From Luteibacter rhizovicinus (GTDB lineage: Bacteria > Pseudomonadota > Gammaproteobacteria > Xanthomonadales > Rhodanobacteraceae): a DNA stretch of 64,000 nucleotides. Location: contig NZ_SMCS01000001.1 in assembly GCF_004342265.1 (NCBI RefSeq), positions 868,001 through 932,000 of the forward strand, written 5' to 3'. A program made the translations under genes and the position numbers. Within the stretch, counting starts at the first letter, position 1; every line of letters begins with the position of its first letter. The notes beneath the pieces were generated by a model, which was not told the DNA's origin, did no database searches, and worked only from the letters and a program-made list of their open reading frames with translations. This document shows, piece after piece, positions 47,278 to 64,000 of this stretch.

Positions 47278-48468
47278 ATGCCGCGGCAGTCGACGATGCG
47301 TTCTGATCAGCCCGTCGTAGATTCGCTCGCCGTACTCGGGCGTGTGCTGATCTGGATGATCGGTGTCGCCTCGCTCACCCTGATAATGGCGAGCGGCGCG
47401 GCCACCCGACTCGACAACACGTTCTACGATCTGCATATGCATCATTGGTCGTATCGGACCGGCGACGCCGTGGTGATTGTGGCGATCGATGCGAAGAGTC
47501 TGTCCAGGCTCGGCAATTGGCCGTGGCCGCGCGCAGTGCATGCCCGGTTGCTCGATCGCCTCACCGATGCAGGCGTTCGCGGTGTCGGTATCGACATCAC
47601 CATGGCCGAGCCCGACATCAATCACCCGGAAAACGATCGCGCGCTCGCGCAGGCCATTCGTCGAAACGGGCACGTTGCCATGCCAGTGTTCGCCGAAGCC
47701 GCCGAACTTGGTGGAACGCTGGAAGAGATGCTGCCCACGCAGGAGATCGCCAGCGAGGCATCTGCCTTCGGTCACGTCGATGCCGCCAAGGACGACGACG
47801 GTGTCATTCGTGGCGCCTACCTGAAAGCTGGTCTGGGGCGCCCGTACTGGCCGGCCCTCGCCCTCGTCGTCTATGACATGGACCGGGAAACGCAAAAGCC
47901 AGTACTACCCAGCCTGCACAGGCCGGATACGGATACAGAGTCGCCTTACCAATGGATGCGCGACGACTATGTCCTGCTGCATTTCGCCGGACCGGCCGGT
48001 AGCTTCGACCAGGTCTCCTACGTCGACGTGCTGGAGGGCCATGTCTCGCCCGAGCTACTCAAGGGACGCTGGGTATTCGTCGGCGCCACGGCCTCGGGAC
48101 TTGGCGACCTGCTGGACACCTCGGCCTCGGGTGGCGACGAGCGCATGCCCGGCGTGGAGTATCAGGCCAACCTTCTCGAATCCGTCGAGAACGCCAGCAC
48201 GCTGACGCCATTGAATTTCACGAGCCAGTTCGTCGTCGGTGCGGCATTGCTGACGTTGCCACTATTGCTCTACGGTCTGCCCGGATTTCGTCAGATGTGG
48301 ACGATTGCCCTGGTCGCCCTGCTCGCATGTTTCGGAACGAGCGTTGCACTCTTGCGGATGGTGGGATGGTGGTGGCCTCCCTTGAGCTGCGTGATCGTCA
48401 TGGCTGTCGGTTTGGGTGTCTTCTCGGCGCTGCGAAAGTTCAGGGATCGTCACAACGCTTCGAGATGA
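47278..48468 (+). CDS. CHASE2-domain membrane protein without an output domain
   Basis: A 396-residue protein. One N-terminal membrane helix is followed by an extracytoplasmic CHASE2 sensor (about 45-300; VAIDAKSLSRLGNWPWPRAV, VGIDITMAEPD, FVGATASGLGDLLDT). Three C-terminal helices (from VVGAALLTLPLLLYGL) and a short basic tail (RKFRDRHNASR) complete it. CHASE2 normally feeds a cyclase, kinase or GGDEF domain after the third helix; here the protein simply stops, and the last 19 bp overlap the LysR gene end. It either signals through a separate partner (the LysM-FecR protein or the kinase at 42526) or has lost its catalytic part. Confidence 0.88.
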   Translation: MPRQSTMRSDQPVVDSLAVLGRVLIWMIGVASLTLIMASGAATRLDNTFYDLHMHHWSYRTGDAVVIVAIDAKSLSRLGNWPWPRAVHARLLDRLTDAGVRGVGIDITMAEPDINHPENDRALAQAIRRNGHVAMPVFAEAAELGGTLEEMLPTQEIASEASAFGHVDAAKDDDGVIRGAYLKAGLGRPYWPALALVVYDMDRETQKPVLPSLHRPDTDTESPYQWMRDDYVLLHFAGPAGSFDQVSYVDVLEGHVSPELLKGRWVFVGATASGLGDLLDTSASGGDERMPGVEYQANLLESVENASTLTPLNFTSQFVVGAALLTLPLLLYGLPGFRQMWTIALVALLACFGTSVALLRMVGWWWPPLSCVIVMAVGLGVFSALRKFRDRHNASR

Positions 48469-50415: not shown

Positions 50416-52158
50416 TTATCGCCGCGCTTCGACGACCTGTCTTCCACTCGTGGTCCTGGTAACGACCGTCGTGGCGGGCTCGCCGCCGATGGTTAGTACC
50501 TGGTCCGCGATCGTTGTCACGTCGACCCGGTGCGAGACGACGATCAGGATCGTGCGTGGCATGCGACGTTTCATCGTGGCCAGCACGGCTCTCTCCGACG
50601 CCGCATCGAGTGCGCTGGTGGCCTCGTCCAGTACGGCGATGAACGGCTGCCGCAGCATGACCTGGGCCAGCATCAGACGTTGCAACTCGCCACCCGATAG
50701 CCGGCTCGAGGCACGGTCCAGCGACGTGTCGAGACCATGCTCCGAACGAGCAAGCCGGGCATCGAGACCGACGTCCAGCAACGCGTTTCGCAACATTGCG
50801 TCGCTGGCCTCGGGCGCTGCCCATAGCAGGCTTTCGCGGACGGAAGACTGCCATGGCCTGACGTTCTGGCTGACGTAGGCACCGTTCCTCACCAACTGCC
50901 GATAGCCGTCGAAATCGAGGGGCCGGCCGTCGACGCATGCCTCGAACCGCTCGGGCGGGGCCATGCCCGCCAGCACGTCGACCAGACTGCTCTTGCCGAT
51001 GCCGGAGTCGCCGTATATCAGGGTCATCTCGCCCGGTACCAGCATCAGGTCGACGACATCCAGTCCGGCGAGCGGCGGCAGCACCCGTAAGCGGTCTATC
51101 CGTAGCGTGCCGACCACGGTCGTCTCGGGCGGTGACGCGGCAGACGCATGCGCCGTGCCCAGGCGCATATATCGCTGCCATAGTTCGAACGCTGGCGCCG
51201 CCGAGCGCAGTTGCTGGAAACTCTGCCGGGTCGAGACAAGGTAAGGCAGCAGGCGCCCGAGCAGCAGGCACACCGCGATCAGCGACGCCGAATCGATGCC
51301 GTGCCAGCGCTGCGCGAGGACGAAGACGCCGGCGATACCCGCCGCCGCCAGCAGTTCCAGCAGCAAGCGTCCGGAAGCCACCAGTTCCAGCTGTCGCGCG
51401 TAGCCATCGCAAAGCCCGGCGGAGATCGCGCCATAACTCGCTTTCTCCGCACTCTCGCGTTCGAACGAACGGACGTGGCGCAAGCGCCGTGGGAAATCCT
51501 CGCTGTGCCAGAACAGCCGGGTCATATCCGCGACGTACTGCCGGCTTACCCGCGATTGCTCGCGACCGAAGACACGCGAAGCAAGCAGACCGACGACCAT
51601 CAGCACGGGTGCCGCCAGCATCAATGGCGGCGATACCCAGAACGCGAACGCCAGACTGACGGCAGCGGTGATCCCGGCTACCAATAGCTGCTGCAAGGCA
51701 CTGTAACCCTGCACGACGATCTCGACGTTGTAGGTGAGGACATTGGCGATCTCCGCGGACGTCGCATCCGCCAGCGACGCCAGCGGTGCATCGATCAGGC
51801 GGGCATGAACGCTGCGCCGCAGATTCATGCCGTAGCGTCCGACCAGACGCGCACCGAGTCGCGCCGTCTGCCAGCGTAGCAATGCGAACGCCACGGTTGC
51901 GATAACGAAGACCATGACCTGCGTGCCGGCCCGTCCGTGCAGATCGAACAGTCCACCGCCGAACGGCAGCGGTTGCCCCGGTTGGACCAGCGGCACCAGC
52001 AGCACTGCGGCGAGGCTGCCGGCCAGTGCCGAGCCCAGGGACAGCGCGACATAGATCGCTGTCTCGATCAGGTCGTCGCCTGCGAGCGAGCGCACGAGGG
52101 ATCGCAACGGCCCTTGCCCGGTGTCCTTCGCGGTCGACGTATCGACCGTCGCCATCAC
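50416..52158 (-). CDS. ABC transporter, fused permease-ATPase (exporter type)
   Basis: A 580-residue half-transporter. The N-terminal exporter permease has about six helices (~25-310). The C-terminal ATPase carries Walker A GDSGIGKSS, the signature LSGGELQ and Walker B FIAVLDEATSAL. The start overlaps the stop of the HprK-like gene (ATGA), so the pair is co-translated. As a homodimer it would export a hydrophobic or peptidic product, or flip a lipid-linked intermediate. No peptidase domain of the bacteriocin-exporter kind is present. Confidence 0.92.
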   Translation of the reverse strand: MMATVDTSTAKDTGQGPLRSLVRSLAGDDLIETAIYVALSLGSALAGSLAAVLLVPLVQPGQPLPFGGGLFDLHGRAGTQVMVFVIATVAFALLRWQTARLGARLVGRYGMNLRRSVHARLIDAPLASLADATSAEIANVLTYNVEIVVQGYSALQQLLVAGITAAVSLAFAFWVSPPLMLAAPVLMVVGLLASRVFGREQSRVSRQYVADMTRLFWHSEDFPRRLRHVRSFERESAEKASYGAISAGLCDGYARQLELVASGRLLLELLAAAGIAGVFVLAQRWHGIDSASLIAVCLLLGRLLPYLVSTRQSFQQLRSAAPAFELWQRYMRLGTAHASAASPPETTVVGTLRIDRLRVLPPLAGLDVVDLMLVPGEMTLIYGDSGIGKSSLVDVLAGMAPPERFEACVDGRPLDFDGYRQLVRNGAYVSQNVRPWQSSVRESLLWAAPEASDAMLRNALLDVGLDARLARSEHGLDTSLDRASSRLSGGELQRLMLAQVMLRQPFIAVLDEATSALDAASERAVLATMKRRMPRTILIVVSHRVDVTTIADQVLTIGGEPATTVVTRTTSGRQVVEARR

Positions 52159-53198
52159 GCGCTCGCCACGCGGCGCGGCGACAGCAGCGTCAGCAACGCA
52201 TCGGCGGAATCGCGCGGATGCCGTCCACGAAGCAGTCGATGCATACCCATGCGCATCATCTCCTGTTCGAAGCGACGCCAGCCCGGTTGCGCGGCCGCAT
52301 ACGGCTGATCGGCGGACAGCCGTCCGGCGATCTCGTGCCGGGGTATCGGGCTCAGTAACGCATCGGGATCGTCCGCTATCCGGTTCGACACCAAAACGGC
52401 GCCGATCAGTGTCATGGGAGTGGCGACGGACCGGCCCCGACCGAGGCGCAGGTCAGCCTCGAACTTCTCGACGCCGCTACGACGACGGATCACCGGCGAT
52501 TCGCCGATCCAGCGACGGGTTTCCTTGTCGTCGACGAAACGCAGTGCGTCGTCGCGGACATGAAGATAATTGGCGACACCGGTGGCGAGCATATTGTCCG
52601 GCTGCACGAAGACGGCATCCTCGGCGAGAAAATCCATCCCTTGCAGCAGACTGTGCAGTGCCAGCGTCGACTTGCCCGCACCACTGGCGCCGAGCAGCAG
52701 GATGCCCCGCCCTTCCCTGCCCACGCAGGCGCCATGCAGCGGCACCAGATCCATCCCGCGCGCCGCCAGCAGGAACACCGCGAATTCGATGAGTTCGTAA
52801 CGCACATGGTAGGGATGGCTCAACATGTCCTCGGACACCACCACGAGCGCGCGGCGTTGTCCGGGCGAGACCAGCACATAGTTCGACGCATCCATGACGC
52901 CACACAGCAAGCCCGCACCGGATTGCGTGCGCACCGGCGGCGGTTCGTCGACGGAGCGATCCGTCTGTCGCGGCACGAGACGCAGCTCGACATGAAACAT
53001 CGGCGGCGCCGCATAGCGCCGTTGCGGCGGCAGCCCGCCATAAGCCGCCTCGACCAGTCGCAGCAATGCTTCGCTCGCGCTTTCGAAATGGAAATGGCCG
53101 CCGAGTATGTCCTTGCGGACAGTGAGCGGCGGAGCGGATCGTTCATGAAACGGATCGGCACCGGCGTCGCCGATGTCGTGTTGCGTAGTCGGGGCCAT
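52155..53198 (-). CDS. HprK-like kinase
   Basis: A 347-residue P-loop protein of the HPr kinase/phosphorylase-like group found in natural-product and surface-polysaccharide loci rather than with the PTS. The P-loop is GASGAGKST at 170-178, preceded by LHGACVG (His155). FLAEDAVFV is the following acidic motif. The N-terminal ~120 residues are a separate domain. HprK-like kinases occur beside lasso-peptide genes and in loci with NTP_transf_5 nucleotidyltransferases, as here; their substrates are mostly unproven. Divergent from the radical SAM gene at 53455. Confidence 0.85.
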   Translation of the reverse strand: MAPTTQHDIGDAGADPFHERSAPPLTVRKDILGGHFHFESASEALLRLVEAAYGGLPPQRRYAAPPMFHVELRLVPRQTDRSVDEPPPVRTQSGAGLLCGVMDASNYVLVSPGQRRALVVVSEDMLSHPYHVRYELIEFAVFLLAARGMDLVPLHGACVGREGRGILLLGASGAGKSTLALHSLLQGMDFLAEDAVFVQPDNMLATGVANYLHVRDDALRFVDDKETRRWIGESPVIRRRSGVEKFEADLRLGRGRSVATPMTLIGAVLVSNRIADDPDALLSPIPRHEIAGRLSADQPYAAAQPGWRRFEQEMMRMGMHRLLRGRHPRDSADALLTLLSPRRVASA

Positions 53199-53454
53199 CG
53201 TCGTCGATCGAAGGGTGAGCCGATCCGGCGGCGCGACGCGAAGTCACGAATCCTCCGGACATGTAGCCAGTAAGTGCCCGCACACACGGGAAAGGTTGCG
53301 CTTGGCTATGCCCCATCGCACATCCGCGACGAGCCATCTTTTTTCCATGCGAGGCAACCGATCGTCCCTACCCCGGCACTCACGGGCAATCAGCGAAAGA
53401 CATCGGGATCGATGCCGTCGCGTTCCCCATGATGACGATCGAGGCTCCTTCGAG

Positions 53455-54945
53455 ATGCTAAAGATTCAGGTCGGCCACTCCTACTTCCTTCGCTACGACC
53501 GGAAGCAGTGGGAACGCGGCAAGCCGTATCCCCCGCTCGCGACGATTCAGGTCGCGGCCCTGCTCAGGGAAATGGGGCACGAGGTGTCGTTGTTCGACGC
53601 GATGCTCGCCGACGGCGTGGAAGATCACGAAGGCGCCCTGCACGCCGCGCGTCCGGAACTGGTCGTGATCTACGAGGACAACTTCAACTTCCTCACCAAA
53701 ATGTGCCTCGGCCGCATGCGTGAGGCGGCTTGCCGGATGATCGGCGAAGCGCGCGCTTATGGCGCTCGCGTGATCGTCGCAGGTTCCGATGCATCCGATC
53801 ATCCGGAGGCTTTCCTCGCCGCGGGCGCGGACGCCGTACTGGTCGGCGAAGGCATCGCCGCGCTGGTCGAACTGAGCGGCCGGCTCGAACGCGATCCCGG
53901 CCTCGACACGCCCGAGTGGGTCGCTGGCGTTCCCGGCGTTGCCACGCGCGTGCAGGGACAGATACAACTGACCCGCGTCGGCGTGATCCCGCCCGATGCA
54001 CGACTGGTCGGCCGTCCTGCCTGGGACCTGGTCGACATGGACCGCTACCGCACGTTCTGGCACGAACGGCATGGCTACTTCAGCCTCAACATGGCCGCTT
54101 CGCGCGGCTGTCCGTTCCGTTGCAACTGGTGCGCCAAGCCGATCTGGGGCAATCACTATAAACAGCGCCCCGCCGAAGACGTGGCCGCCGAGATGACCTA
54201 CCTCAAGCACACGTTCGCGCCCGATCACATCTGGATGGCCGACGACATCTTCGGCTTTCATGTCGACTGGGTCACCGAGTTCGCCGCGCATCTGCGCGCG
54301 TCCGATGGTTCCGTTCCCTTCATGATCCAGACCCGTGCCGACCTCGCCAGCGAACGCATGGTCGCCGCGCTGGCGCTGGCCGGTTGCGCCGAAGCCTGGA
54401 TTGGTGCGGAGAGCGGCAGCCAGCGCGTACTGGACCGCATGACCAAGGGCACCAAGGTGCCCGATCTGATCGCGGCCCGGGAACGGCTCGGCGAGCATGG
54501 CATCCGCGTGGGCTTCTTCATCCAGCTCGGCTACCTGGGCGAGGAACTCGACGACCTGCTGGCAACGCGCGCGCTGGTGGCGCAAGCCGCGCCGGACGAT
54601 GTCGGCGTCAGCGTCTCTTATCCGCTGCCGGGCACGAAGTTCTACGACGAGGTGAAGGCGCAGTTGGGCAAGAAAACGAACTGGCGCGACAGCGCCGACC
54701 TGTCCATGATGTTCCGCGGCGCCTACGACTCGGATTTCTACCGCCGCGTGCGCGACCTGTTGCACGAACAGGTCAATCTGCAACAGGCGAAAACCGGCGA
54801 ATCGGCCGAACGTCGTCGGCAGGAGCTTACCGCGCTCGATGCGCGCTGGGATGCGCTGATCGCCTGCGAGCACGCGCATCGCAGCGAAGAGCCCACGATG
54901 TCTCCTCCGATGGCAAGGCAGAGCATCGCCTTGACGCTGCTCTAG
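53455..54945 (+). CDS. B12-binding radical SAM enzyme (first copy)
   Basis: A 496-residue protein. The cobalamin-binding Rossmann domain (about 1-165; VVIYEDNFNF, VIVAGSDASDHPEAFLAAGA) is followed by a radical SAM domain with the 4Fe-4S motif C219-x3-C223-x2-C226 (CPFRCNWC). A GAESGS motif lies near 330, as in the family. ATG 53455 lies behind GAGG; the frame is open upstream to 53173 but that part crosses the HprK promoter. Enzymes of this class methylate or rearrange unactivated carbons. The operon partner is a nucleotidyltransferase. Confidence 0.92.
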   Translation: MLKIQVGHSYFLRYDRKQWERGKPYPPLATIQVAALLREMGHEVSLFDAMLADGVEDHEGALHAARPELVVIYEDNFNFLTKMCLGRMREAACRMIGEARAYGARVIVAGSDASDHPEAFLAAGADAVLVGEGIAALVELSGRLERDPGLDTPEWVAGVPGVATRVQGQIQLTRVGVIPPDARLVGRPAWDLVDMDRYRTFWHERHGYFSLNMAASRGCPFRCNWCAKPIWGNHYKQRPAEDVAAEMTYLKHTFAPDHIWMADDIFGFHVDWVTEFAAHLRASDGSVPFMIQTRADLASERMVAALALAGCAEAWIGAESGSQRVLDRMTKGTKVPDLIAARERLGEHGIRVGFFIQLGYLGEELDDLLATRALVAQAAPDDVGVSVSYPLPGTKFYDEVKAQLGKKTNWRDSADLSMMFRGAYDSDFYRRVRDLLHEQVNLQQAKTGESAERRRQELTALDARWDALIACEHAHRSEEPTMSPPMARQSIALTLL

Positions 54946-54951
54946 ACCGCC

Positions 54952-56166
54952 ATGCTGCCGCCACTGGGTCTGGTCAGGAAAGGGTTGCATCGCACCACCG
55001 AGGCGCTTGCCGAGGAACTGGCGTTCGCACGACCGGGCGCCGCCACGCCCGACTGGAACGAACTGGAGTGGCAGCTCGCATCAGCGGCCGCCGCCGCGCA
55101 CGGTATCTCGCCGCTTCTGTCGCAATGCTCTACCTGGCGGCATCCCGCGTGGACACGGTTCCTTGTCGCCCAGCGCGAGCATGTCGAGCATCGTCATCGA
55201 CACATCGCGTCGCTGCTGGAACGTATCGACGCCAGCGCGCGTGTTGCCGGACTGCCCATCGTTCCCCTGAAGGGCTCCGCCTTGCATGCCATCGGCCTCT
55301 ACGCAGCGGGCGACCGGCCCATGGCCGATATCGACCTGCTGGTCCGCGATGCGGATGTCGACGCGGCTATCGTGTTGCTGACCGATCTTGGCTACGTCGA
55401 GTCGTTCGTGCAGTGGAAGCATCGCGTCTTCAAGCCGGCGATGGGCGAACCGATCCTTGGGCTCGGCGAGCACCGCGACACACCGGTCAACATCGAACTG
55501 CATACGCGCATCCAGGAGCGTTTGCCGATCAGCACCGTGGACATCACCGAACGCATATATCCGGCCGATCCCCGTCCCGGCCTGAATCCGTATCCTTCGA
55601 ACGGCGCATTGATGAGTCACCTGCTGCTCCATGCGGCCGGCAATCTCTGCGGACGCAGCGTGCGTCTTATCCATCTGAACGATATTTCCCTGCTGGCGAC
55701 GCGAATGGTCGCGCGCGACTGGGAAGTGCTTTGGGCTGGCGGTTCGCCATGGTGGGCCCTGCCGCCGCTACGTCTGGTTTCGCGCTACTACCGGTGCGCC
55801 GTCCCCTTGTTCGTGCTGGCCCGGCTGCAACGCGACTGCCCTCTCCTGTTACGGATGATCTCGCGCGGTCGCACACTCACCCAGGCATCGTGTTCGGCGC
55901 TATGGCTGCACGCATTGCCGGGCATCGAATGGGCACAGTCGCTGCGCGAAGCCGGCCGCTGCCTGCACAACCGTTTCCGGCCATCGGAGGAAAACATCAA
56001 GGAGCGTGCCGACATGGTCCGCACGCAGCTGTGGCTCAAGGGACAGAGCTGGGTCACGCTGAGCCATGGCCGGCGCATCCTGACGCGGCTCACGCGTCCG
56101 GTGCCGCGGATGGATACGCTCTACGTGGTACGCGCCGCGCTTGAATACGGCGCATCGTCGACGTAG
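54952..56166 (+). CDS. Nucleotidyltransferase-family protein (NTP_transf_5 type)
   Basis: A 404-residue protein. The central motif region LPIVPLKGSALHAIGLYAAG, then RPMADIDLLVRD (near 100-130) matches the NTP_transf_5 nucleotidyltransferases, with the two metal-ligand Asp in DIDLLV. Such proteins stand next to HprK-like kinases, asparagine synthetases and PqqD proteins in lasso-peptide and polysaccharide loci. Here only the kinase and the radical SAM enzyme are nearby. The gene is 6 bp after the radical SAM stop and converges with the glycosyltransferase at 56170 with only three bases between stops. Confidence 0.88.
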   Translation: MLPPLGLVRKGLHRTTEALAEELAFARPGAATPDWNELEWQLASAAAAAHGISPLLSQCSTWRHPAWTRFLVAQREHVEHRHRHIASLLERIDASARVAGLPIVPLKGSALHAIGLYAAGDRPMADIDLLVRDADVDAAIVLLTDLGYVESFVQWKHRVFKPAMGEPILGLGEHRDTPVNIELHTRIQERLPISTVDITERIYPADPRPGLNPYPSNGALMSHLLLHAAGNLCGRSVRLIHLNDISLLATRMVARDWEVLWAGGSPWWALPPLRLVSRYYRCAVPLFVLARLQRDCPLLLRMISRGRTLTQASCSALWLHALPGIEWAQSLREAGRCLHNRFRPSEENIKERADMVRTQLWLKGQSWVTLSHGRRILTRLTRPVPRMDTLYVVRAALEYGASST

Positions 56167-56169
56167 ACG

Positions 56170-57273
56170 TTAGCGCCCGGCGAGAAGCATCGCGTACAAC
56201 GTCTCGAACGATCCGGCGGTATGATCGGCGTCCTCGGCGATCGCCCGGCGCTGCGCTTCATCGGCAAGGCGCAGCCGCAGTCCTTCATCGTCGAGCACGC
56301 GCTGTATCGCCACCGCGAGTGCGGCCCAGTCGCCGACGGGCACGGCCAGCGCCGCCGCCGGCGACCATTCGACCAGATGTCCCACGGCCGTACCCACGGT
56401 CGGTACGCCCGCCACCGCCGCCTCCAGAAGGACGAGCGGTCCGGCTTCGTGCAACGACGACATCACCAGCAGATCGGCCGCGACCATGAGCGGACGCAGT
56501 TCCCGTTGCGTGCGGAAGCCCACGAAACGGACGTGCCGTTCCAGTCCGAGCCGATGAACCAGACCATCCATCTCTCCCTGCAACGTGTCCACACCGACGA
56601 TGTCGATGGTGAAAGACAGTCCCGCGTTGGCTACGGCCGCCAGGGCACGCAACAGGGTCGTCTGGTCCTTGACCCGGTTGATGCTGGCGACATGGATCAG
56701 TCTCGCCGGTCCGGCATCGCGTCGGCGTGGCGCGAGCGGTGTCCACGCGCGTAGATCGACGCCAAGCGGCACGCGCCGCGCTTCGAGACCGAGCGCACGC
56801 AGCGAATCGACAATCGGCGAGCTGGCCGCCGTGATCGCGTTCGTAGCGCGCAACACGACGGCCTCGCGCAGCCGGCCTTTCCACTTCCGCCGTCCGCCGT
56901 AGCCGATGGCGTCGAGCGCGACCAGTTCGCCACCGGCGATGTGGACGAGACTGGGTCGCCGCAGCCATCTCGCCGCAACGACGGCGATCAGGCTGCAGTC
57001 GCCCGAAAAAATGGCGTGGATAAGATCGAACGGTGCGTGGCGATGCTCGGCCCGGATCGCCGCGATCGCACGCAGGCGAGGCCATCCCTCGCCGATGTTG
57101 TGGATCTGTGCGCCAAGCAGGTCCCAGCGCGCCGCCACGGCTTCCTGATGCAGGACGAAGACATGGACGTCATGCGCGCGCGCGAGTCGTTCGATCAGCG
57201 CCAGCAAGACCGGGATCACGCGGAATTCGCCCGTACGGTCGACACCGCCAGGCATCACCAGTGCGATCTTCAT
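56170..57273 (-). CDS. GT4-family glycosyltransferase
   Basis: A 367-residue GT-B retaining enzyme. ATG 57273 gives MKIALVMPGGVDRTGEFRVI, a normal GT4 start, and overlaps the upstream gene's stop (ATGA). The C-terminal donor domain has IHVASINRVKDQTTLLRAL, FVGFRTQRELRPLMVAADLL and the EAGPLVLLEAAVAG(V)P signature with the catalytic Glu pair. Last gene of the operon. Sugar and acceptor unknown. Confidence 0.9.
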   Translation of the reverse strand: MKIALVMPGGVDRTGEFRVIPVLLALIERLARAHDVHVFVLHQEAVAARWDLLGAQIHNIGEGWPRLRAIAAIRAEHRHAPFDLIHAIFSGDCSLIAVVAARWLRRPSLVHIAGGELVALDAIGYGGRRKWKGRLREAVVLRATNAITAASSPIVDSLRALGLEARRVPLGVDLRAWTPLAPRRRDAGPARLIHVASINRVKDQTTLLRALAAVANAGLSFTIDIVGVDTLQGEMDGLVHRLGLERHVRFVGFRTQRELRPLMVAADLLVMSSLHEAGPLVLLEAAVAGVPTVGTAVGHLVEWSPAAALAVPVGDWAALAVAIQRVLDDEGLRLRLADEAQRRAIAEDADHTAGSFETLYAMLLAGR

Positions 57274-58394
57274 GTCGCGTTCCGCCGCCGGTCGTCGAGC
57301 AGTTGTGCGTATGCGTCCGCCCATTGGCGACCCACCGCCGCGAACGACAACGTGGCGTCGAAGTGGGTTCGCACGCGTGCTGGCGACGGCCGATCAATCG
57401 CCATGCGGACCAGTATTTCGGCCAGTTCCGCCGCATCGCCACGCGTCCAGTGCTCGCCGATGGCGTCGCCGGTCAGCGCGCGGAACGCGGGAATGTCCGT
57501 CACGACGGGTGCCACACCGCAGGCAAGCGCTTCCAGCAATGCGTAGCCGCAGCTTTCGGCGAGGCTTCCGGAGACGAACAGGTCCGCGGCCTGCATGCAG
57601 GTTTCGATACGTGCATGTGTCAGCGTGCCGAGGAGATGTACGCGCCCGGCGAGTCGCGGATCCTGCGCGACCCGTCGCTGCACTTCGTCCAGCAGCGGCG
57701 CATTGCCGAAGGCGAACCACAGTTGCACGTCAGGCAGGCTTGCCGCCGCCAGGGCGACGCCCTCGATCACGGTGAGCGGGTCTTTGCCGTCGCTCAGATG
57801 CCCGACCGAAAGAATGCAGGGATCGCCACGGAGACCCGTCGCGGCGCGCGCGCTGGCCCGGTTGCCAGGCACGAAACGGCTACTGGATTCCGGTATCGCG
57901 AACAGCCGGGTCCGCGTCCCGAACAGGCTGGCGGCGACGAATGGTTGCGCCAGCGCGGGTGCGGTGAAAGCGATACCCGATGCGGCGGCGTACCAGGGCC
58001 GCCACCGCGAGCGTCGCCACCACGGCGGCGGCCGGTCGGCGTGGTCCTGGATCAGGATCGGCACATCGGGCAGGCATCGCGCCAGTTCGAACGCGTCGCG
58101 AGCGAAGCCCAGACTGTGCAAATGCAGGACGTCCGGTGCGATGTCGCGCAGAAGATCAGCGAAATGGCGGGCACGCCTGACTGCGGAAGTCATGCCGCGG
58201 GTATCGGTGAAGCGATAGTCGACGCCGCGACGCGTCAGCCGCGCATCGCATGCCGCGGCCTGGATCACGGAGATCCGGGTACCGGCGCCCGCGGCCGCCT
58301 CGGGAATGTCCGCCAGCGACGGCCAGCGTTCGAACAGGTCCGCGGGCGAGCAATCCGCTGGCGCGGGCAACACATTGATCTGCGCGACATGCAC
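57270..58394 (-). CDS. GT4-family glycosyltransferase
   Basis: A 374-residue GT-B enzyme. The N-terminal domain starts MHVAQINVLPAPADCSPADL. The C-terminal domain shows ILSVGHLSDGKDPLTVIEGV, HLLGTLTHARIETCMQAADL and ESCGYALLEALACGVAPVVT, where ExxxxxxLE is the GT4 donor-site signature. It starts two bases after the radical SAM stop and overlaps the next glycosyltransferase by four bases. Together the two enzymes would add at least two sugars to a common acceptor. Confidence 0.9.
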   Translation of the reverse strand: MHVAQINVLPAPADCSPADLFERWPSLADIPEAAAGAGTRISVIQAAACDARLTRRGVDYRFTDTRGMTSAVRRARHFADLLRDIAPDVLHLHSLGFARDAFELARCLPDVPILIQDHADRPPPWWRRSRWRPWYAAASGIAFTAPALAQPFVAASLFGTRTRLFAIPESSSRFVPGNRASARAATGLRGDPCILSVGHLSDGKDPLTVIEGVALAAASLPDVQLWFAFGNAPLLDEVQRRVAQDPRLAGRVHLLGTLTHARIETCMQAADLFVSGSLAESCGYALLEALACGVAPVVTDIPAFRALTGDAIGEHWTRGDAAELAEILVRMAIDRPSPARVRTHFDATLSFAAVGRQWADAYAQLLDDRRRNAT

Positions 58395-58396
58395 GC

Positions 58397-59938
58397 CTAA
58401 AGACCCGACACCTGCGGCATCCGCAAGCGAACCAACCGGTTCGCGAGATTAAGCTCCCACGGGCGGTCGTACTTGCGCTGACGGTAGCGCCACGCGGCCA
58501 TCGCACTCAGGCTGCGCTTGGCCCAGGTGGGTGAGCGCAGGTCCTGCACGGTGGGGAAACGGCAGCGCAGCACGGTCACGAAATCGTGGATGTGCCGGCG
58601 AAGCTCGTCGGTCAGCCACGGCGCATCGGCGTGGCAGGCGTAATCGACCCAGCGTTTTTCCATCCATTCTTCCGGCGTTTTCGGAAAGATCACGGGCTCG
58701 CCGTTGAGGTCGAGCAGTGCCATGCCGGGATGCTTGCCGCGGTCCTTTTCGTGCTTGCTGCTTTCCGGCAGCGGCGTGTAGATGTAAACGATGATCTCGG
58801 AAGCCGGATTGATCCGCTTCAGTTCGCGGATGAACTCGAAGGTGTGCTGGGTTTCCTCCTCCGTGTTCTCCGGCGGCGCGACCATGAACGACAGCTCGGG
58901 AATCACGCCGTGCCGCCGGCATAGCTCCGCGACTTCCAGCGTCTGGTCGGGCCGTGTGCCTTTGCGGATTTCCTTGAGCATCTGCCCGCTGGGCGATTCG
59001 GCACCGATGTACGCCATGCGCAGGCGGCTCTTGCGCACCAGTTTCCACGAGCTTTCCGACAGGTTGAGCAGCGCATCGGAGCGGGCGTAGCACCACCACG
59101 GCATCTCGAGTTTCGCCATCACTTCGAGCAGCGGGATCATGTCTTCTTCGCGGTCGAAGAAGTTGTGGTCGAAGAACTGGATCGAATCCGCGCCAAGCTC
59201 GTACTTGAGATAGCTCAGGTCGCGTTCCAGCCGCGCCGCGGCCGGCAATGCCGTCGTGCCACCGAACATCGCCGCCACACCGCAGAACGTGCAACGGAAG
59301 CGGCAGCCGATCGACGCCTGGTGCGCGGCCGTACGCCGGCCGAGAAAGGTGCGGGCCAGATAGCGTCGCGGATCGCCGAGCTTGTCGTAAGGCAGGACGA
59401 TGCCGCTGTCGCCAAGCGAGAAGCGTCGGTTCGGGTTGTGCACCACCGCGCCATCGTGTTTCCACGACAGGCTGCCGATCTTCGCGAAGTCCGGCTCTGC
59501 CCTGCCCAGAGCGGCTATCAGTTCGGGCAGGCTTTCTTCGCCCTGCCCGCGGATCGCGTAGTCGACATAGGGCGCGGCCAGCGCGGTATCCGCATAGAGC
59601 GTCGGGAAATAGCCGCCCCAGATGATCGGGGTTTGCGGAAAACGCTCGCGGATCGCTTTCGAGACGGCGATGGACGGCTCGATCTGCGGACCGCCCATGA
59701 CGCTGATGCCGACGGCATCGAAGTGCGTGCGCTCCATGGCGCGAAGTGTTTCGCCCACCACGTCGCGATCGACGTTGCCATCGATGATGTGGCTCTCGCC
59801 CGTCCGGTCGAGGGCCGCCGCCAGGTGCAGCAACGATAGAGGGAACCGTGCGCTGGACGGTGACGTAATGGTTGGATTGACCAGCAGCGTCCGCGGGGAG
59901 TGAGGCATGGGTCGGAATGGCATGTCGTGGAAACTCAT
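58397..59938 (-). CDS. B12-binding radical SAM enzyme (second copy)
   Basis: A 513-residue protein of the same overall type as the 53455 enzyme but in a different operon. The cobalamin-binding domain occupies ~15-150 (HIIDGNVDRD, VGISVMGGPQIEPSIAVSKA, IIWGGYFPTLYADTAL). The radical SAM motif is C212-x3-C216-x2-C219 (CRFRCTFC), with YIGAESPSGQMLKEIRKGT later. A C-terminal tail after ~430 is helical. Its ATG overlaps the stop of the methyltransferase gene upstream (ATGA). Two such enzymes in one locus point to two distinct carbon-centred modifications. Confidence 0.92.
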   Translation of the reverse strand: MSFHDMPFRPMPHSPRTLLVNPTITSPSSARFPLSLLHLAAALDRTGESHIIDGNVDRDVVGETLRAMERTHFDAVGISVMGGPQIEPSIAVSKAIRERFPQTPIIWGGYFPTLYADTALAAPYVDYAIRGQGEESLPELIAALGRAEPDFAKIGSLSWKHDGAVVHNPNRRFSLGDSGIVLPYDKLGDPRRYLARTFLGRRTAAHQASIGCRFRCTFCGVAAMFGGTTALPAAARLERDLSYLKYELGADSIQFFDHNFFDREEDMIPLLEVMAKLEMPWWCYARSDALLNLSESSWKLVRKSRLRMAYIGAESPSGQMLKEIRKGTRPDQTLEVAELCRRHGVIPELSFMVAPPENTEEETQHTFEFIRELKRINPASEIIVYIYTPLPESSKHEKDRGKHPGMALLDLNGEPVIFPKTPEEWMEKRWVDYACHADAPWLTDELRRHIHDFVTVLRCRFPTVQDLRSPTWAKRSLSAMAAWRYRQRKYDRPWELNLANRLVRLRMPQVSGL

Positions 59939-60633
59939 GGGAGGCGCCTGAGCTGGAATACCAGCGCGACGGGAACCTCGAGCGCCGCACTATCGAAATG
60001 CGCGGCCGGCGGAATATCGGCCGGATTGAGCATCGGTTCCACGATGCGTTCGATCGCGAGCCTCAGCGCGGCACATGCCTCATGCCAGTGGCTGTAGAGA
60101 TGCTGCGTATGCCGCACCGCGTAGCGTTGCCCGCCATGCCTGAAATCCCGCTGCCAGCCGAGCGCATGGCCGATGGGATGGACATCGCTGCATAACAGAC
60201 GGCCACCGGGACGCGTGACGCGGCGCAGTTCGCCCAATGCCTGTTGCAGATGGTCGAGATGGCCAACGACCAGACCGCATACCGTGAGGTCCGCGAAGCC
60301 GTCCGGTATCGGTAACGAGGTAAGGCTGCCCTGCCGCAGCGCGACGTTGGCGACAGCGGAACGTGCGGCCAGCGCCTTGCGCGCTCGTTCGAGCATCGGC
60401 GGCGACAGATCCACGCCCGTCACGTGCGTCGCACCGCGATCCAGCGCGTGCAGCACGTAGCGTCCGCTGCCGCAGCCGGCATCGAGCACGCTACGGCCGT
60501 GCAGTTGTCTGGGCATCAGGCTGAGCATCGCGCGTTCCTCGGCGAGCATGACAGGGTTGTGCGCGTGCGGCGGGTAACTGTCCGCCCAGAGGGCATAGGC
60601 ATCGACGGGTTCGAGCATCGGGACACTCAGCAT
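59935..60633 (-). CDS. Class I SAM-dependent methyltransferase
   Basis: A 232-residue enzyme. The SAM-binding motif is LDAGCGSG near residue 50, VTGVDLSPPMLERARK is the ribose-binding acidic strand, and LRRVTRPGGRLLCSD is motif III. It overlaps the amidohydrolase stop upstream and the radical SAM start downstream, so all three are translationally coupled. Substrate unknown; the operon context suggests a sugar or lipid-linked intermediate, or the product of the radical SAM step. Confidence 0.9.
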   Translation of the reverse strand: MLSVPMLEPVDAYALWADSYPPHAHNPVMLAEERAMLSLMPRQLHGRSVLDAGCGSGRYVLHALDRGATHVTGVDLSPPMLERARKALAARSAVANVALRQGSLTSLPIPDGFADLTVCGLVVGHLDHLQQALGELRRVTRPGGRLLCSDVHPIGHALGWQRDFRHGGQRYAVRHTQHLYSHWHEACAALRLAIERIVEPMLNPADIPPAAHFDSAALEVPVALVFQLRRLP

Positions 60634-61850
60634 GGGATACGCCTCGCTGCGGTCGTGGCATCGGTGACGAACGCCAGCCCCGGTTCGAGGGCGAGCAACG
60701 CGGGATCGGCCAGGGAACGGGCCAGCAGTTTCGGCTTGCCGTCGAGCATCACCGCCACGGCATCGACGCCGGTGGCCGCAAACCAGTCGGCGAAGTCGGG
60801 ATCGGCGATGCGCGGCAGGCCGTCGCGCACGACGGCGCGAAGCTGGCTGCGTCGCAGCCCGACGAGACTGTCTGCCGGATCGCCGCCACGATCCTCCACG
60901 ATCGCCATGTCCGCCGGGGCACCGACAGCCAGGCTGCCGTATCCGGCAAGACGCAGGATGCGCGCCGCTCGCGTGGTGACCAACGCCAGCAACGACGTCG
61001 CATCCAGCTCATCGCGAGCGGCGGCCATGCTCAGCTCGTCGAGCAGGTCGCGGGCACCGCTCAGACGCGAGTCGCTACCCATCGTCAGCCGGCCGGCTTC
61101 GCACAGACGGCGCGGATCGAGCGTTCGTCCGAGCAGTGCGCGATTGCTTTGCGGACACCAGACGACAGCCGCGCCGCAGGCGATCACGCGATCGATATCC
61201 GTTTCGCGCAAGCCGACGCCGTGGATGAGTACGGTGTTCGCGGCCAGACAACCCAGCGCGTCCAGTTGCGCGAGTTCCGCCTGCGCCGTTTCGTCGGTGC
61301 CTTCGGCGAGATGGATCAGCCAGGGTCGGCCGGCGGGCGTGGCGGCGAAACTCTGGCGTACCGGCGGACCGTAGTCGGGACCGGCCAGCGTGTAGCTCCA
61401 GCCATAGTCGCGCAGCAAGGCGACGGGAAAGTCGGCGTCGTCGAGTGCCGGGTGCCAGGGATCGTGATGCGCGACGCAGGTCGTGCCGGCGAGCAGGTTC
61501 TTCAGCGCGCCGTGGCGAAGGCGAAGGCTTTTCGGTACGTCCAGTGCGGCGACGACGATGGGATCCTGAAAGTGCGACTGGAAAGCCGAGATCCAGGCGT
61601 AGCTGTTCGGAAAAGGCGTGGCGTGACGTAGTGGCGGCACGCCGTTGACGTGCAGGTGGTCGTGCGCGTTGATCAGGCCCGGGAAGATCAGGTGATCCCG
61701 CAGATCGACCGGGTACGCATGTGCGCCCGGCGACGCATCGATGCGGCCGGCACGAACCGGAAGCGGCGCATGCGACACGCCATCGGGCACGAGGGAAACC
61801 GCGCCGACAAGATCGGTATCCGACGAAAAATGGTGTCGAAAGATTTCCAT
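60627..61850 (-). CDS. Amidohydrolase (chlorohydrolase/deaminase-like)
   Basis: A 407-residue metal-dependent hydrolase. ATG 61850 is five bases after the upstream methyltransferase stop; the longer frame (to 62741) is only an overlap with that gene. The metal site is HDH at 63-65 (LINAHDHLHVNG), followed by His in HLAEGTDE, His in LIHGVGL and the catalytic Asp in MGSDSRLSG. These are the ligands of ATZ/TRZ-type and adenosine-deaminase-like amidohydrolases, which remove amino or halo groups from nitrogen compounds. An amidohydrolase within a polysaccharide-type operon is unusual; its substrate is unknown. Confidence 0.88.
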   Translation of the reverse strand: MEIFRHHFSSDTDLVGAVSLVPDGVSHAPLPVRAGRIDASPGAHAYPVDLRDHLIFPGLINAHDHLHVNGVPPLRHATPFPNSYAWISAFQSHFQDPIVVAALDVPKSLRLRHGALKNLLAGTTCVAHHDPWHPALDDADFPVALLRDYGWSYTLAGPDYGPPVRQSFAATPAGRPWLIHLAEGTDETAQAELAQLDALGCLAANTVLIHGVGLRETDIDRVIACGAAVVWCPQSNRALLGRTLDPRRLCEAGRLTMGSDSRLSGARDLLDELSMAAARDELDATSLLALVTTRAARILRLAGYGSLAVGAPADMAIVEDRGGDPADSLVGLRRSQLRAVVRDGLPRIADPDFADWFAATGVDAVAVMLDGKPKLLARSLADPALLALEPGLAFVTDATTAARRIPC

Positions 61851-61855
61851 CCGAC

Positions 61856-62677
61856 TCAACGCCGGTGCATCACGATTAGGAAATGGTCGCCCATGTCGCG
61901 CAGCAACGGCGCGGCACCGAGGCGATCGTCCAGGCGACCGAGCCGTTCGTACCAGTCCGGACGGCGGCGGTAGCGGTCGACCATGTACGGTGGCGGCATG
62001 AACAGGCTCAGCGCGCGATAGCCGCCCAGAGAGAACGTTCCGGCGAAGGCACGATAGAACTCGCGCGGCAGGTAGTAATACGTCCAGATCGTGTGCCGGT
62101 TCATGCCGACCGCCGTCGCACCGCGCGCGGCGCGCACGGCTGCACGACGGAAACGTCCACGCAATGCGTAGTGCCCTACTTCCCACGGACAGATCCGGCC
62201 CATCACCGAAAACACCAGCGTGCCGCCCGGCTTGAGCAGGCGCGCGCATTCGCTCGCGACGGCATGCAGGTCCGGCGCGCAGTTCAACGGACCGAAGTTC
62301 GAATAGATCGCGTCGAATTCGCCGTCGAGCCGGTCCATCCGCTGGATGCCCAGATGCGTGGTCGTCACCCGCGATTCGAGCGCCGCGGCGTCGGCGCGTT
62401 CGCGCGTTCGTTCGACCATCTGCGGCGACCAGTCGGTGGCAACGACGCGGAAACCACGCCGCGCGAACTCGATCGCGTCGATGCCCGTACCACAGCCGAG
62501 GTCGAGCAGACAGCCGCCCGCCGCGACCTTGGCGTGCACGGTGTCCCACAGGGTGACCCGCATGCGCTGGATCAGTTCGTTGTTGCCGCGGGGGCCGTCG
62601 TAATCCGCCGCGACACTGTCGAAGGCGTGCTGGGTCTCCAGCAGCTGCGCTTCGTCTAGCGTGTGTTGCCCACTCAT
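61856..62677 (-). CDS. Class I SAM-dependent methyltransferase
   Basis: A 273-residue enzyme. Start 62677 follows GGAG with six bases (GGAGATCGACATG). The SAM motif is LDLGCGTG near 63, and VATDWSPQMVERTRERADAA is the acidic strand. The C-terminal half carries an aromatic-rich insert (WTYYYLPREFYRAFAGTFSL) that likely forms the substrate lid. The stop is five bases before the amidohydrolase start. Confidence 0.9.
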   Translation of the reverse strand: MSGQHTLDEAQLLETQHAFDSVAADYDGPRGNNELIQRMRVTLWDTVHAKVAAGGCLLDLGCGTGIDAIEFARRGFRVVATDWSPQMVERTRERADAAALESRVTTTHLGIQRMDRLDGEFDAIYSNFGPLNCAPDLHAVASECARLLKPGGTLVFSVMGRICPWEVGHYALRGRFRRAAVRAARGATAVGMNRHTIWTYYYLPREFYRAFAGTFSLGGYRALSLFMPPPYMVDRYRRRPDWYERLGRLDDRLGAAPLLRDMGDHFLIVMHRR

Positions 62678-62765
62678 GTCGATCTCCGTACCCAGACCGG
62701 TGAGTGCCTCGGGACACGCCTTTGGTTGAATCGGATCGCAAACGATCGGATGGTGAACGGAGGTG

Positions 62766-63566
62766 TCACCGGCGAGTCCGTCGCATGGCATCCCTTCCCA
62801 CCGCCGCCAAACCGCCGAGGAACAGTCCGGTGAGGAGGCCGATGCCCCAGATCAGCACGGGATTGGGAAACGCTTTCCGCTCCGGCACATAGATCGGCCA
62901 GGGCATCGATGTTTCGAAGGTGTAGTTGGGAACGAGCCGGGCGACCAGTTCGCTACGCGCCTGCTGCAAGGCGCGGATGTCCTCGTTCTTCGATGCGAGC
63001 AGCACGCTTGCGAGACCCGTGCCTGTGCCGGCATCGCGCGACAGGCGGTCGCGATCGGCCTGCGCGGTCCGCAGGTCGGCCTCGATCTCGTCGAGACGCT
63101 GGTTCGCCAGCCGGAGCGGCACCTCGCCGATTTGCCGATGAATGGCTTCGAGCCGCGTGACCGTCGCGGTGACCAGGTCGGCTGCCTGCCGTGGCGAGTA
63201 CGCCCGAACGCGCATCTTGATGAGGTTGGCATAAGGCTCGGGATCCAGCTTCATGCTCTTCCGGTACAAAGAAGCCTCGCGCGACTCGACGGTGAGTCCG
63301 ATGCTCCTCACCACCTCGTCCTGAAACGCCACGGTCTCCAGGCGTTCGATCACCCGCAGCAACGACTCGACCTTTGGGTCCTGTCCGGCAGGTGCCGGCG
63401 CGATCTGCCCTATCTGTATCCACGCCGTCGCTTCCCACTGGTCGCGCGCGACGCGTGTATAGGCGAAGGTAAGCGCCAGAACAACGATCAGCACGGCCAC
63501 GAACCAACGCCACTGGCGCAGCAGAACCCGCCACATGTCGATCAAGTAGATGTCATCCTGTTCCAT
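62766..63566 (-). CDS. Wzz-family chain-length determinant-like protein
   Basis: A 266-residue inner-membrane protein of the polysaccharide co-polymerase type. There are two membrane helices (~18-38, FVAVLIVVLALTFAYTRVAR; ~235-253, LIWGIGLLTGLFLGGLAAVG) with a periplasmic part rich in coiled coil between them. The conserved Pro-rich stretch before the second helix (PVLIWG preceded by P-Y/VPERKAFPN) is present. No kinase domain is attached. It regulates the length of a surface polysaccharide and overlaps the polymerase gene by 14 bp. Confidence 0.88.
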   Translation of the reverse strand: MEQDDIYLIDMWRVLLRQWRWFVAVLIVVLALTFAYTRVARDQWEATAWIQIGQIAPAPAGQDPKVESLLRVIERLETVAFQDEVVRSIGLTVESREASLYRKSMKLDPEPYANLIKMRVRAYSPRQAADLVTATVTRLEAIHRQIGEVPLRLANQRLDEIEADLRTAQADRDRLSRDAGTGTGLASVLLASKNEDIRALQQARSELVARLVPNYTFETSMPWPIYVPERKAFPNPVLIWGIGLLTGLFLGGLAAVGRDAMRRTRR

Positions 63567-64000
63567 GGTTGCTCACTGCTGAAGTGGAGGAAAAGTCGTG
63601 GGAACGGCGATCGGGCAACCACGCCGCGATCACCTGCATGACCAGGCACAGGCCGATGAATCCCGCGTTGGTCAATGTGTATGCCTGCGGTGCGAACGGC
63701 GACATCACGCAGACGTAGGCCACGCGTAGGAAGATCAGCAACGGGAAAAGGGACGCCGCCGGGCGGAGCCGTCGGGCACTCCACAGCAGCAACGCATACA
63801 GCACGCCGATCGCGAGTACGGCACCTGCAGGCCCCATCGCCATCGCAAACGGAAAGAACTCCGTGCCCACGTTGATGTTCGGCGCATCCAGCGGAATATC
63901 CGTTCCCGCGGTGGCCACCGATCCGCTCAGGGGAACCAGCTGGTTGATGAGGAAGTCGGCATTGGCGTAATGCTTGGCCACGATGGCGCCGAAGTTGTAC
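63553..64000 (-). CDS. O-antigen ligase/polymerase-like membrane protein, cut by the right edge
   Basis: The C-terminal 148 or so residues of a polytopic membrane protein. The frame is open to the window edge. Hydrophobic helices near FPFAMAMGPAGAVLAIGVLY, LFPLLIFLRVAYVCVM and GLCLVMQVIAAWL are consistent with a Wzy/WaaL-type polymerase or ligase. The position directly ahead of the Wzz-like gene with a 14-bp overlap supports that role. The signature loop of the family would lie outside the window. Confidence 0.6.
   Translation of the reverse strand, partial: YNFGAIVAKHYANADFLINQLVPLSGSVATAGTDIPLDAPNINVGTEFFPFAMAMGPAGAVLAIGVLYALLLWSARRLRPAASLFPLLIFLRVAYVCVMSPFAPQAYTLTNAGFIGLCLVMQVIAAWLPDRRSHDFSSTSAVSNHGTG

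Follow-up and report, generated by a model that had tools for sequence, protein, structure and literature searches.

Why should a kinase, a nucleotidyltransferase and a transporter of the kinds found in some lasso-peptide clusters share a locus with genes for surface glycan assembly? The question is raised by a stretch of 64,000 nucleotides from Luteibacter rhizovicinus (RefSeq assembly GCF_004342265.1, contig NZ_SMCS01000001.1), here called the window, which spans C1:868001-932000. The genome measures 4.47 Mb and is assembled into 22 contigs. The last 13.6 kb of the window had been picked out from the letters alone (hereafter the original prediction) as a hybrid of polysaccharide assembly genes and peptide-natural-product-type enzymes whose right end lies outside the window. 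The locus proves to be a true hybrid: about 26 genes, starting at 50,416 and running past the window edge to ~77 kb, in which an HprK-like kinase with an ATP-binding cassette (ABC) exporter, B12-binding radical SAM enzymes (A and B) with an NTP_transf_5 nucleotidyltransferase (NTP5), and glycan genes keep one order across two bacterial families, in relatives of Xanthomonas from soil and plants. Gene content, synteny, co-occurrence and a promoter-like motif shared by the heads of the transcription units, that of a sigma factor gene included, tie these parts together. We hold with moderate confidence that the locus is an envelope-glycan regulon with its own extracytoplasmic function (ECF) sigma factor, in which the kinase and NTP5 add a phosphate or phosphodiester group to a sugar and not to a peptide. 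No description of the locus was found in the open-licence literature.

Leftwards from FdtA, the genes encode FdtA, a hexapeptide protein, a GH32-like protein (a weak assignment), a GNAT_6 protein, DegT, Wzx, a GT2 glycosyltransferase, a candidate for the polymerase Wzy, Wzz, methyltransferase a, an amidohydrolase, methyltransferase b, radical SAM B, and the GT4 glycosyltransferases b and a; beyond GT4a lie the convergent NTP5 and radical SAM A genes, then the divergent HprK and ABC genes. Conservation of this arrangement was followed in two sets of loci: 80 from relatives (the best 80 of 391 confirmed candidates in a scan with radical SAM A) and 40 from the family, chosen from 91 with HprK. 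The sets are not independent, since at least 10 loci of the second repeat DNA of the first; the 40 are 20-kb stretches, in which genes further along are undercounted. Synteny values for the Wzy candidate and GT2 that came from wrong-frame letters are left aside. The full set of ABC, HprK, radical SAM A and NTP5 was found in 75 of the 80 relatives, the misses being L121, L177, L178, L180 and L111, which begins at a contig end. Counted singly, HprK and NTP5 each occur in 79 and ABC in 75, and the family loci hold HprK, radical SAM A and NTP5 in 40 of 40 and ABC in 39. The order is common to Rhodanobacteraceae and Xanthomonadaceae, relatives with the locus including Luteibacter, Dyella, Rhodanobacter, Frateuria, Pinirhizobacter, Xanthomonas, Lysobacter enzymogenes, Pseudoxanthomonas, Luteimonas and a Hydrocarboniphaga metagenome-assembled genome, and in 12 of 12 relatives followed over an extended stretch (eight genera) the genes present hold one order. 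An ordinary exopolysaccharide operon without the radical SAM and HprK-like genes as conserved neighbours had been proposed as what would refute the original prediction, and the outcome was the opposite: the radical SAM and HprK genes are conserved neighbours. Among 28 Xanthomonas loci, the amidohydrolase and Wzy candidate occur in 27 and radical SAM B in three; as B was not found in the other 25 (one of which, L170, is cut before the gene), it looks accessory.

Co-occurrence extends this picture to genomes at large. HprK was found in 91 of 233 family genomes, and the amidohydrolase and the ECF sigma factor in 93 each; these are the same 93 genomes, to which all 91 belong (lists compared by eye), and the two genomes without HprK, G012 and G014, are each in ~440-450 contigs. 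Of the 91 genomes, 78 have HprK and ECF on a single contig, at distances of 19.5-35.3 kb. Among 398 genomes from the order, matches to HprK at E < 1e-100 are confined to family f1 and genera g326 and g335 of family f2, the others listed being weak, and a class-wide search with NTP5 gave matches in 20 of 369 genomes: its own and 19 weak ones at no more than 55.3 bits.

The shared motif, GCAACC-N15-GGCACTYAC, lies upstream of transcription-unit heads, including that of the sigma gene, and almost never at internal genes. It emerged from the gap between HprK and radical SAM A, where, of 116 regions, 83 carry its nine-base half at up to one mismatch on one strand and 39 on the other (6.25 in shuffled sequence). 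A sigma-54 promoter was also considered for this gap and rejected (3 of 116 intergenic regions, 3.45 expected from shuffles). Within 250 bases upstream of gene heads, at up to two mismatches and counting loci (some genomes are counted twice), the motif precedes FdtA in 11/11 cases, radical SAM A in 115/122, HprK in 83/108, ECF in 11/12, cytochrome b561 in 8/11, methyltransferase a in 45/67 and ABC in 37/109, with none in shuffles; elsewhere it was absent from 16 internal genes and rare at GT2 (1/33), radical SAM B (4/71) and the Cyc2-type gene described below (2/10). Genome-wide counts were held to one mismatch because at two the L. rhizovicinus genome has 20 sites against 25 for the reversed pattern. 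At that threshold it has seven, six of them in the locus and each of the six facing an annotated gene; the seventh (C2:381880) was set aside as lying inside an open reading frame (ORF). Twelve relatives with the locus have 67 sites, 51 of them in it (reversed-pattern control 11), and twelve without it have six (control nine); genomes lacking the ECF gene show no motif excess. The ECF sigma factor of the locus presumably reads the motif. One perfect unlinked site, in G101, lies ahead of a methyltransferase gene whose product shares 81% identity with a methyltransferase encoded by an insertion in the locus of a Rhodanobacter; among unlinked sites with up to one mismatch in six of the 12 relatives (eight loci examined), only this one (L260) made sense. 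A second perfect unlinked site in G101 (L248:1501-1530; G101:C1:2282343) has no gene to account for it. As a separate observation, a LanM-type lanthipeptide synthetase by its domains (DUF4135 and LANC_like; L231:1222-4095, on C2) lies near a motif match inside an ORF.

Within the window, where coordinates equal those of stretch L003 plus 62,000, all the genes that had been named between 50,416 and 64,000 are present, the HprK-like one falling just below the Pfam cut-off and the Wzy candidate having no Pfam hit:

50416-52158, minus strand: ABC exporter, fused transmembrane and ATPase parts, without a peptidase domain (ABC_tran 5.6e-21, ABC_membrane 2.8e-10)
52155-53198, minus strand: HprK-like kinase, P0002 (Hpr_kinase_C 5.1e-7, 29.8 bits, below the cut-off of 33.3)
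53270-53299, minus strand: promoter-like motif GCAACC-N15-GGCACTTAC, facing HprK, no mismatches
53354-53383, plus strand: promoter-like motif GCAACC-N15-GGCACTCAC, facing radical SAM A, no mismatches
53455-54945, plus strand: B12-binding radical SAM enzyme A, inferred start MLKIQVGHSYF (Radical_SAM 8.1e-14, B12-binding 5.2e-8)
54952-56166, plus strand: NTP5 nucleotidyltransferase (NTP_transf_5 7e-27)
56170-57324, minus strand: GT4 glycosyltransferase a, start probably near 57273 (Glycos_transf_1 2e-22)
57270-58394, minus strand: GT4 glycosyltransferase b (Glycos_transf_1 2.6e-17)
58397-59938, minus strand: B12-binding radical SAM enzyme B (B12-binding 2.4e-15, Radical_SAM 9.2e-15)
59935-60633, minus strand: class I methyltransferase b (Methyltransf_11 2.2e-24)
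60627-61850, minus strand: amidohydrolase, deaminase-like branch (Amidohydro_1 2.6e-16)
61856-62677, minus strand: class I methyltransferase a, longest ORF to 62791, inferred start MSGQHTLDEAQ (Methyltransf_25 9.2e-21)
62700-62729, minus strand: promoter-like motif upstream of methyltransferase a, one mismatch
62766-63566, minus strand: Wzz-like chain-length protein (Wzz 2e-9, 38.1 bits, above the cut-off of 25.5)
63553-64000, minus strand: C-terminal part of the transmembrane-rich Wzy candidate (whole gene L003:1553-2710, to the window equivalent of 64710)

In the left-hand unit, the nearest NCBIfam models to the ABC exporter are CydD/MsbA-like, with scores far under their cut-offs. The HprK-like protein carries the P-loop GASGAGKS, a profile of 22 such sequences matches HprK PDB chains at 2.9e-5, and TIGR04352 scores 40.2 bits against a cut-off of 200, which places the protein outside HPr-rel-A; as judged from sequence, the assignment to HprK is weak but consistent. 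The cysteine triad is intact in both radical SAM proteins (CPFRCNWC, CRFRCTFC), and column identity averages 80% in a 17-row alignment of A. In NTP5, LKG.ALH and MAD.DLL are invariant among 20 aligned sequences. Its AlphaFold2 model (pLDDT 83.8) has no fold match at E <= 0.001, its weak ones being to ANT(2'')-Ia (E 4.5e-3, probability 1.00) and to FKRP, a phosphoryl-sugar transferase (E 0.09, probability 0.80), and a search of PDB by sequence gave no match. An Rfam scan of stretch L002 was also negative. Two variations in relatives touch this unit: in a Rhodanobacter, ABC and HprK are separated by an AhpC/TSA peroxiredoxin gene (L101:7760-8371), which has look-alikes in L053 and L061, and the gap between NTP5 and GT4a is an insertion hotspot (L053:9496-10455, L101:12757-16441, L170:13082-19420) holding methyltransferases, GT2 and other cargo.

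In the glycan part, the "end of a polymerase" noted at 63,553-64,000 is the C-terminus of a 386-residue transmembrane-rich protein, the Wzy candidate, with a multi-helix model (pLDDT 80.8). To the right of the window, Wzx matches Polysacc_synt_3 (5.5e-13, 49.2 bits, cut-off 23), a GT2 glycosyltransferase (1e-22) occupies a 735-residue frame in which the GT2 domain is the sole match in a PDB sequence search, and Pfam recognises FdtA (4.2e-46), DegT (4.4e-112), the hexapeptide protein (3.3e-16) and GNAT_6 (5.6e-6). The nearest NCBIfam models to the amidohydrolase are deaminases, all scoring under cut-off. Judged by their families, FdtA and DegT would make a 3-amino-3,6-dideoxy sugar, which the glycosyltransferases would extend and Wzx would flip. 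The amino-sugar genes and Wzx, the cytochromes and the sigma/anti-sigma pair all lie outside the region first described.

The cytochromes are found to the right of FdtA, on the opposite strand: a cytochrome b561 (2.4e-24), a 449-residue Cyc2-type protein carrying AIPAYARQTGSACADCH, and a cytochrome c (5.8e-9). The flank also holds a TorF-like porin (43.6 bits, cut-off 47.15), the ECF sigma factor (Sigma70_r2 and Sigma70_r4) beside a zf-HC2 anti-sigma factor by Pfam, a subtilase and a TPR protein. All 12 extended relatives have matches to the sigma factor, the anti-sigma factor and the subtilase next to the locus; the cytochromes were not found beside it in G046 and are partly present in G192 and G148. 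Keffer et al. (PMC8406198) describe AXPXFAR[Q/K][T/Y] as unique to Cyc2, and count Xanthomonas among the highly sampled genera whose sequences were thinned out. Ahead of CXXCH, this motif is exact in six of ten relatives (L185, L187, L189, L192, L193, L198), and Y replaces F in the other four (L190, L191, L195, L199) and in the L. rhizovicinus copy. With the fused cytochrome-porins of that source, the protein, a candidate porin-cytochrome, shares AXPXFAR[Q/K]T, CXXCH, PXL and a length of ~450 residues; it differs in that Y for F, in a slightly different motif spacing and in its place in a glycan regulon. A close form of the gene (E <= 3e-144) occurs in 61 of the 93 locus genomes and in none outside, with weaker homologues in many other genomes.

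How, then, might such a locus work? Under the reading we favour, a lipid-linked oligosaccharide with an FdtA/DegT-type 3-amino-deoxy sugar would be built, flipped by Wzx and probably polymerised by the Wzy candidate with Wzz, its sugars being modified by the methyltransferases, the amidohydrolase and the B12 radical SAM enzymes. By analogy with lasso peptides, the HprK-like kinase may add a phosphate, and NTP5 then a phosphodiester-linked group, to a sugar or lipid intermediate, which the ABC exporter might move. As inducer we guess at redox stress, prompted by the zinc-finger anti-sigma factor and the cytochromes. Substrates, product, order of steps and inducer are all inferred. Compared with Wzx/Wzy-dependent loci, with which it has Wzx, Wzz, a transmembrane-rich Wzy candidate, GT2, GT4 and FdtA/DegT in common, the locus adds B12 radical SAM enzymes, a kinase, NTP5 and a dedicated sigma gene, is conserved where those vary, and has no initiating transferase or Wza among its scanned genes. 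HPr-rel-A/B systems (TIGR04352, TIGR04355) share a distant HprK-like kinase, but the kinase here scores ~40 bits where the cut-offs are 200.

It is worth noting that several observations weigh against this reading. No enzyme is tied to a glycan substrate by direct evidence. The HprK-like protein scores below its Pfam cut-off (29.8 against 33.3 bits), the Wzy candidate has neither a Pfam match nor a PDB fold match at E <= 0.001, and the Pfam-scanned locus genes showed no initiating phosphoglycosyl transferase or Wza (the rest of the genome was not searched). G798 has the locus without the FdtA-to-Wzy genes. Thirteen of the 91 genomes, mostly fragmented assemblies, do not have HprK and ECF on the same contig, and in G078 (~10 contigs) HprK and the amidohydrolase are mid-contig with ECF on another contig; the sigma part there may be truly separate. 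The motif is missing from some HprK heads (present at 83/108) and from some of those of methyltransferase a (45/67), and the Cyc2-type gene is not obligate, some 32 of 93 genomes lacking a close form.

The alternatives can be weighed against the same evidence. Least probable, to the point of being hard to credit, is that an exopolysaccharide operon and a small unit of kinase, ABC, radical SAM and NTP5 genes are neighbours by chance: the left-hand genes do form separate divergent units, and in some genomes insertions of several kb (~15 kb by distance in G006) separate them from the glycan operon, but against this stand the near-perfect co-occurrence, the motif common to both parts and the order kept in two families. 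When four loci that appeared to hold the left unit alone were rechecked with others, nine of nine HprK genomes had the amidohydrolase, eight on the same contig, and of three genomes without HprK two lacked it and one gave a weak match. A glycosylated or phosphoglycosylated ribosomally synthesised and post-translationally modified peptide (RiPP), lasso-like, on which kinase, NTP5, radical SAM and ABC would act and which the GT4 enzymes would decorate, is very unlikely too, though B12 radical SAM enzymes do modify RiPPs. In PMC8498205, lasso clusters with kinase, nucleotidyltransferase and transporter are reported, and in pseudomycoidin a hexose is said to be added through phosphate by a kinase and a nucleotidyltransferase. 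An HprK-type kinase, a nucleotidyltransferase and a transporter are common to the paeninodin and pseudomycoidin clusters and to this locus, which differs in having no lasso B or C gene, no precursor found (one gap compared) and a tie to Wzx/Wzz and amino-sugar genes. Transglut_core3 (lasso B) exceeds its cut-off somewhere in nine of 13 genomes tested, among them L. rhizovicinus with one match (28.9 bits, cut-off 26; a 511-residue open frame on contig C12), but no match is in or near a locus, and the two strong ones (G743, G148) are also far off. The HprK/radical SAM A gap, the only one compared for small ORFs, has no clear conserved one, the small-ORF families there tracking the conserved motif DNA in mixed frames. 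Of the seven L. rhizovicinus motif sites, all six inside the locus point at annotated genes and the last is within an ORF, and the block includes FdtA in all but one of 12 extended relatives. Of the genes to be looked for past 64,000, Wzx was found, while Wza, asparagine synthetase (lasso C), Transglut_core3 and PqqD have no domain among the Pfam-scanned locus genes (asparagine synthetase was not searched for in the rest of the genome). With lasso B and C missing from the scanned genes, the "glycosylated peptide" of the original prediction becomes unlikely, and its "modified glycan or glycolipid" stays the best class.

It is also unlikely that this is an ordinary O-antigen or capsule locus of the variable kind that carries odd tailoring genes: Wzx, Wzz, glycosyltransferases and DegT/FdtA are present here and standard in such loci, but serotype loci vary, and here the Wzy candidate keeps 56-78% identity across the 54 related loci, of 74 with a match, that passed the filter; the motif, moreover, is common to the sigma gene and the cytochromes. 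A regulon mainly for redox stress or extracellular electron transfer, with the glycan as a secondary protective layer, seems a poor prospect, although cytochrome b561, the Cyc2-motif porin-cytochrome and cytochrome c lie downstream of the shared motif, L101 has the peroxiredoxin gene described above in its left-hand unit (L053 and L061 have look-alikes), and H2O2 is reported to induce a cytochrome b561 gene in Burkholderia cenocepacia (PMC2830190): the ~32 of 93 genomes without a close Cyc2-type gene yet keep sigma factor and amidohydrolase. A bolder form of the envelope-glycan reading, doubtful as it stands, would have the one ECF sigma factor co-induce a phosphodiester-bearing, radical-SAM-modified glycan and an outer-membrane Cyc2-type electron-transfer chain, the glycan serving as matrix or shield for extracellular redox chemistry.

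The envelope-glycan regulon would offer a testable setting for a lasso-type kinase/nucleotidyltransferase pair outside peptides. It also connects two B12 radical SAM enzymes with a glycan locus that is conserved, and in relatives among Luteibacter, Dyella, Rhodanobacter and Xanthomonas it puts Cyc2-type cytochromes, whose function is uncertain, next to a defined promoter motif. Of the genes around it, a CHASE2-domain protein is encoded to the left (window 47278-48468), and to the right (L003:16627-19984, L004:975-19997) lies a non-ribosomal peptide synthetase gene of at least 6,340 residues, with condensation, AMP-binding and thioesterase domains in the 1,666 residues scanned and P450, MatE and thioesterase genes alongside.

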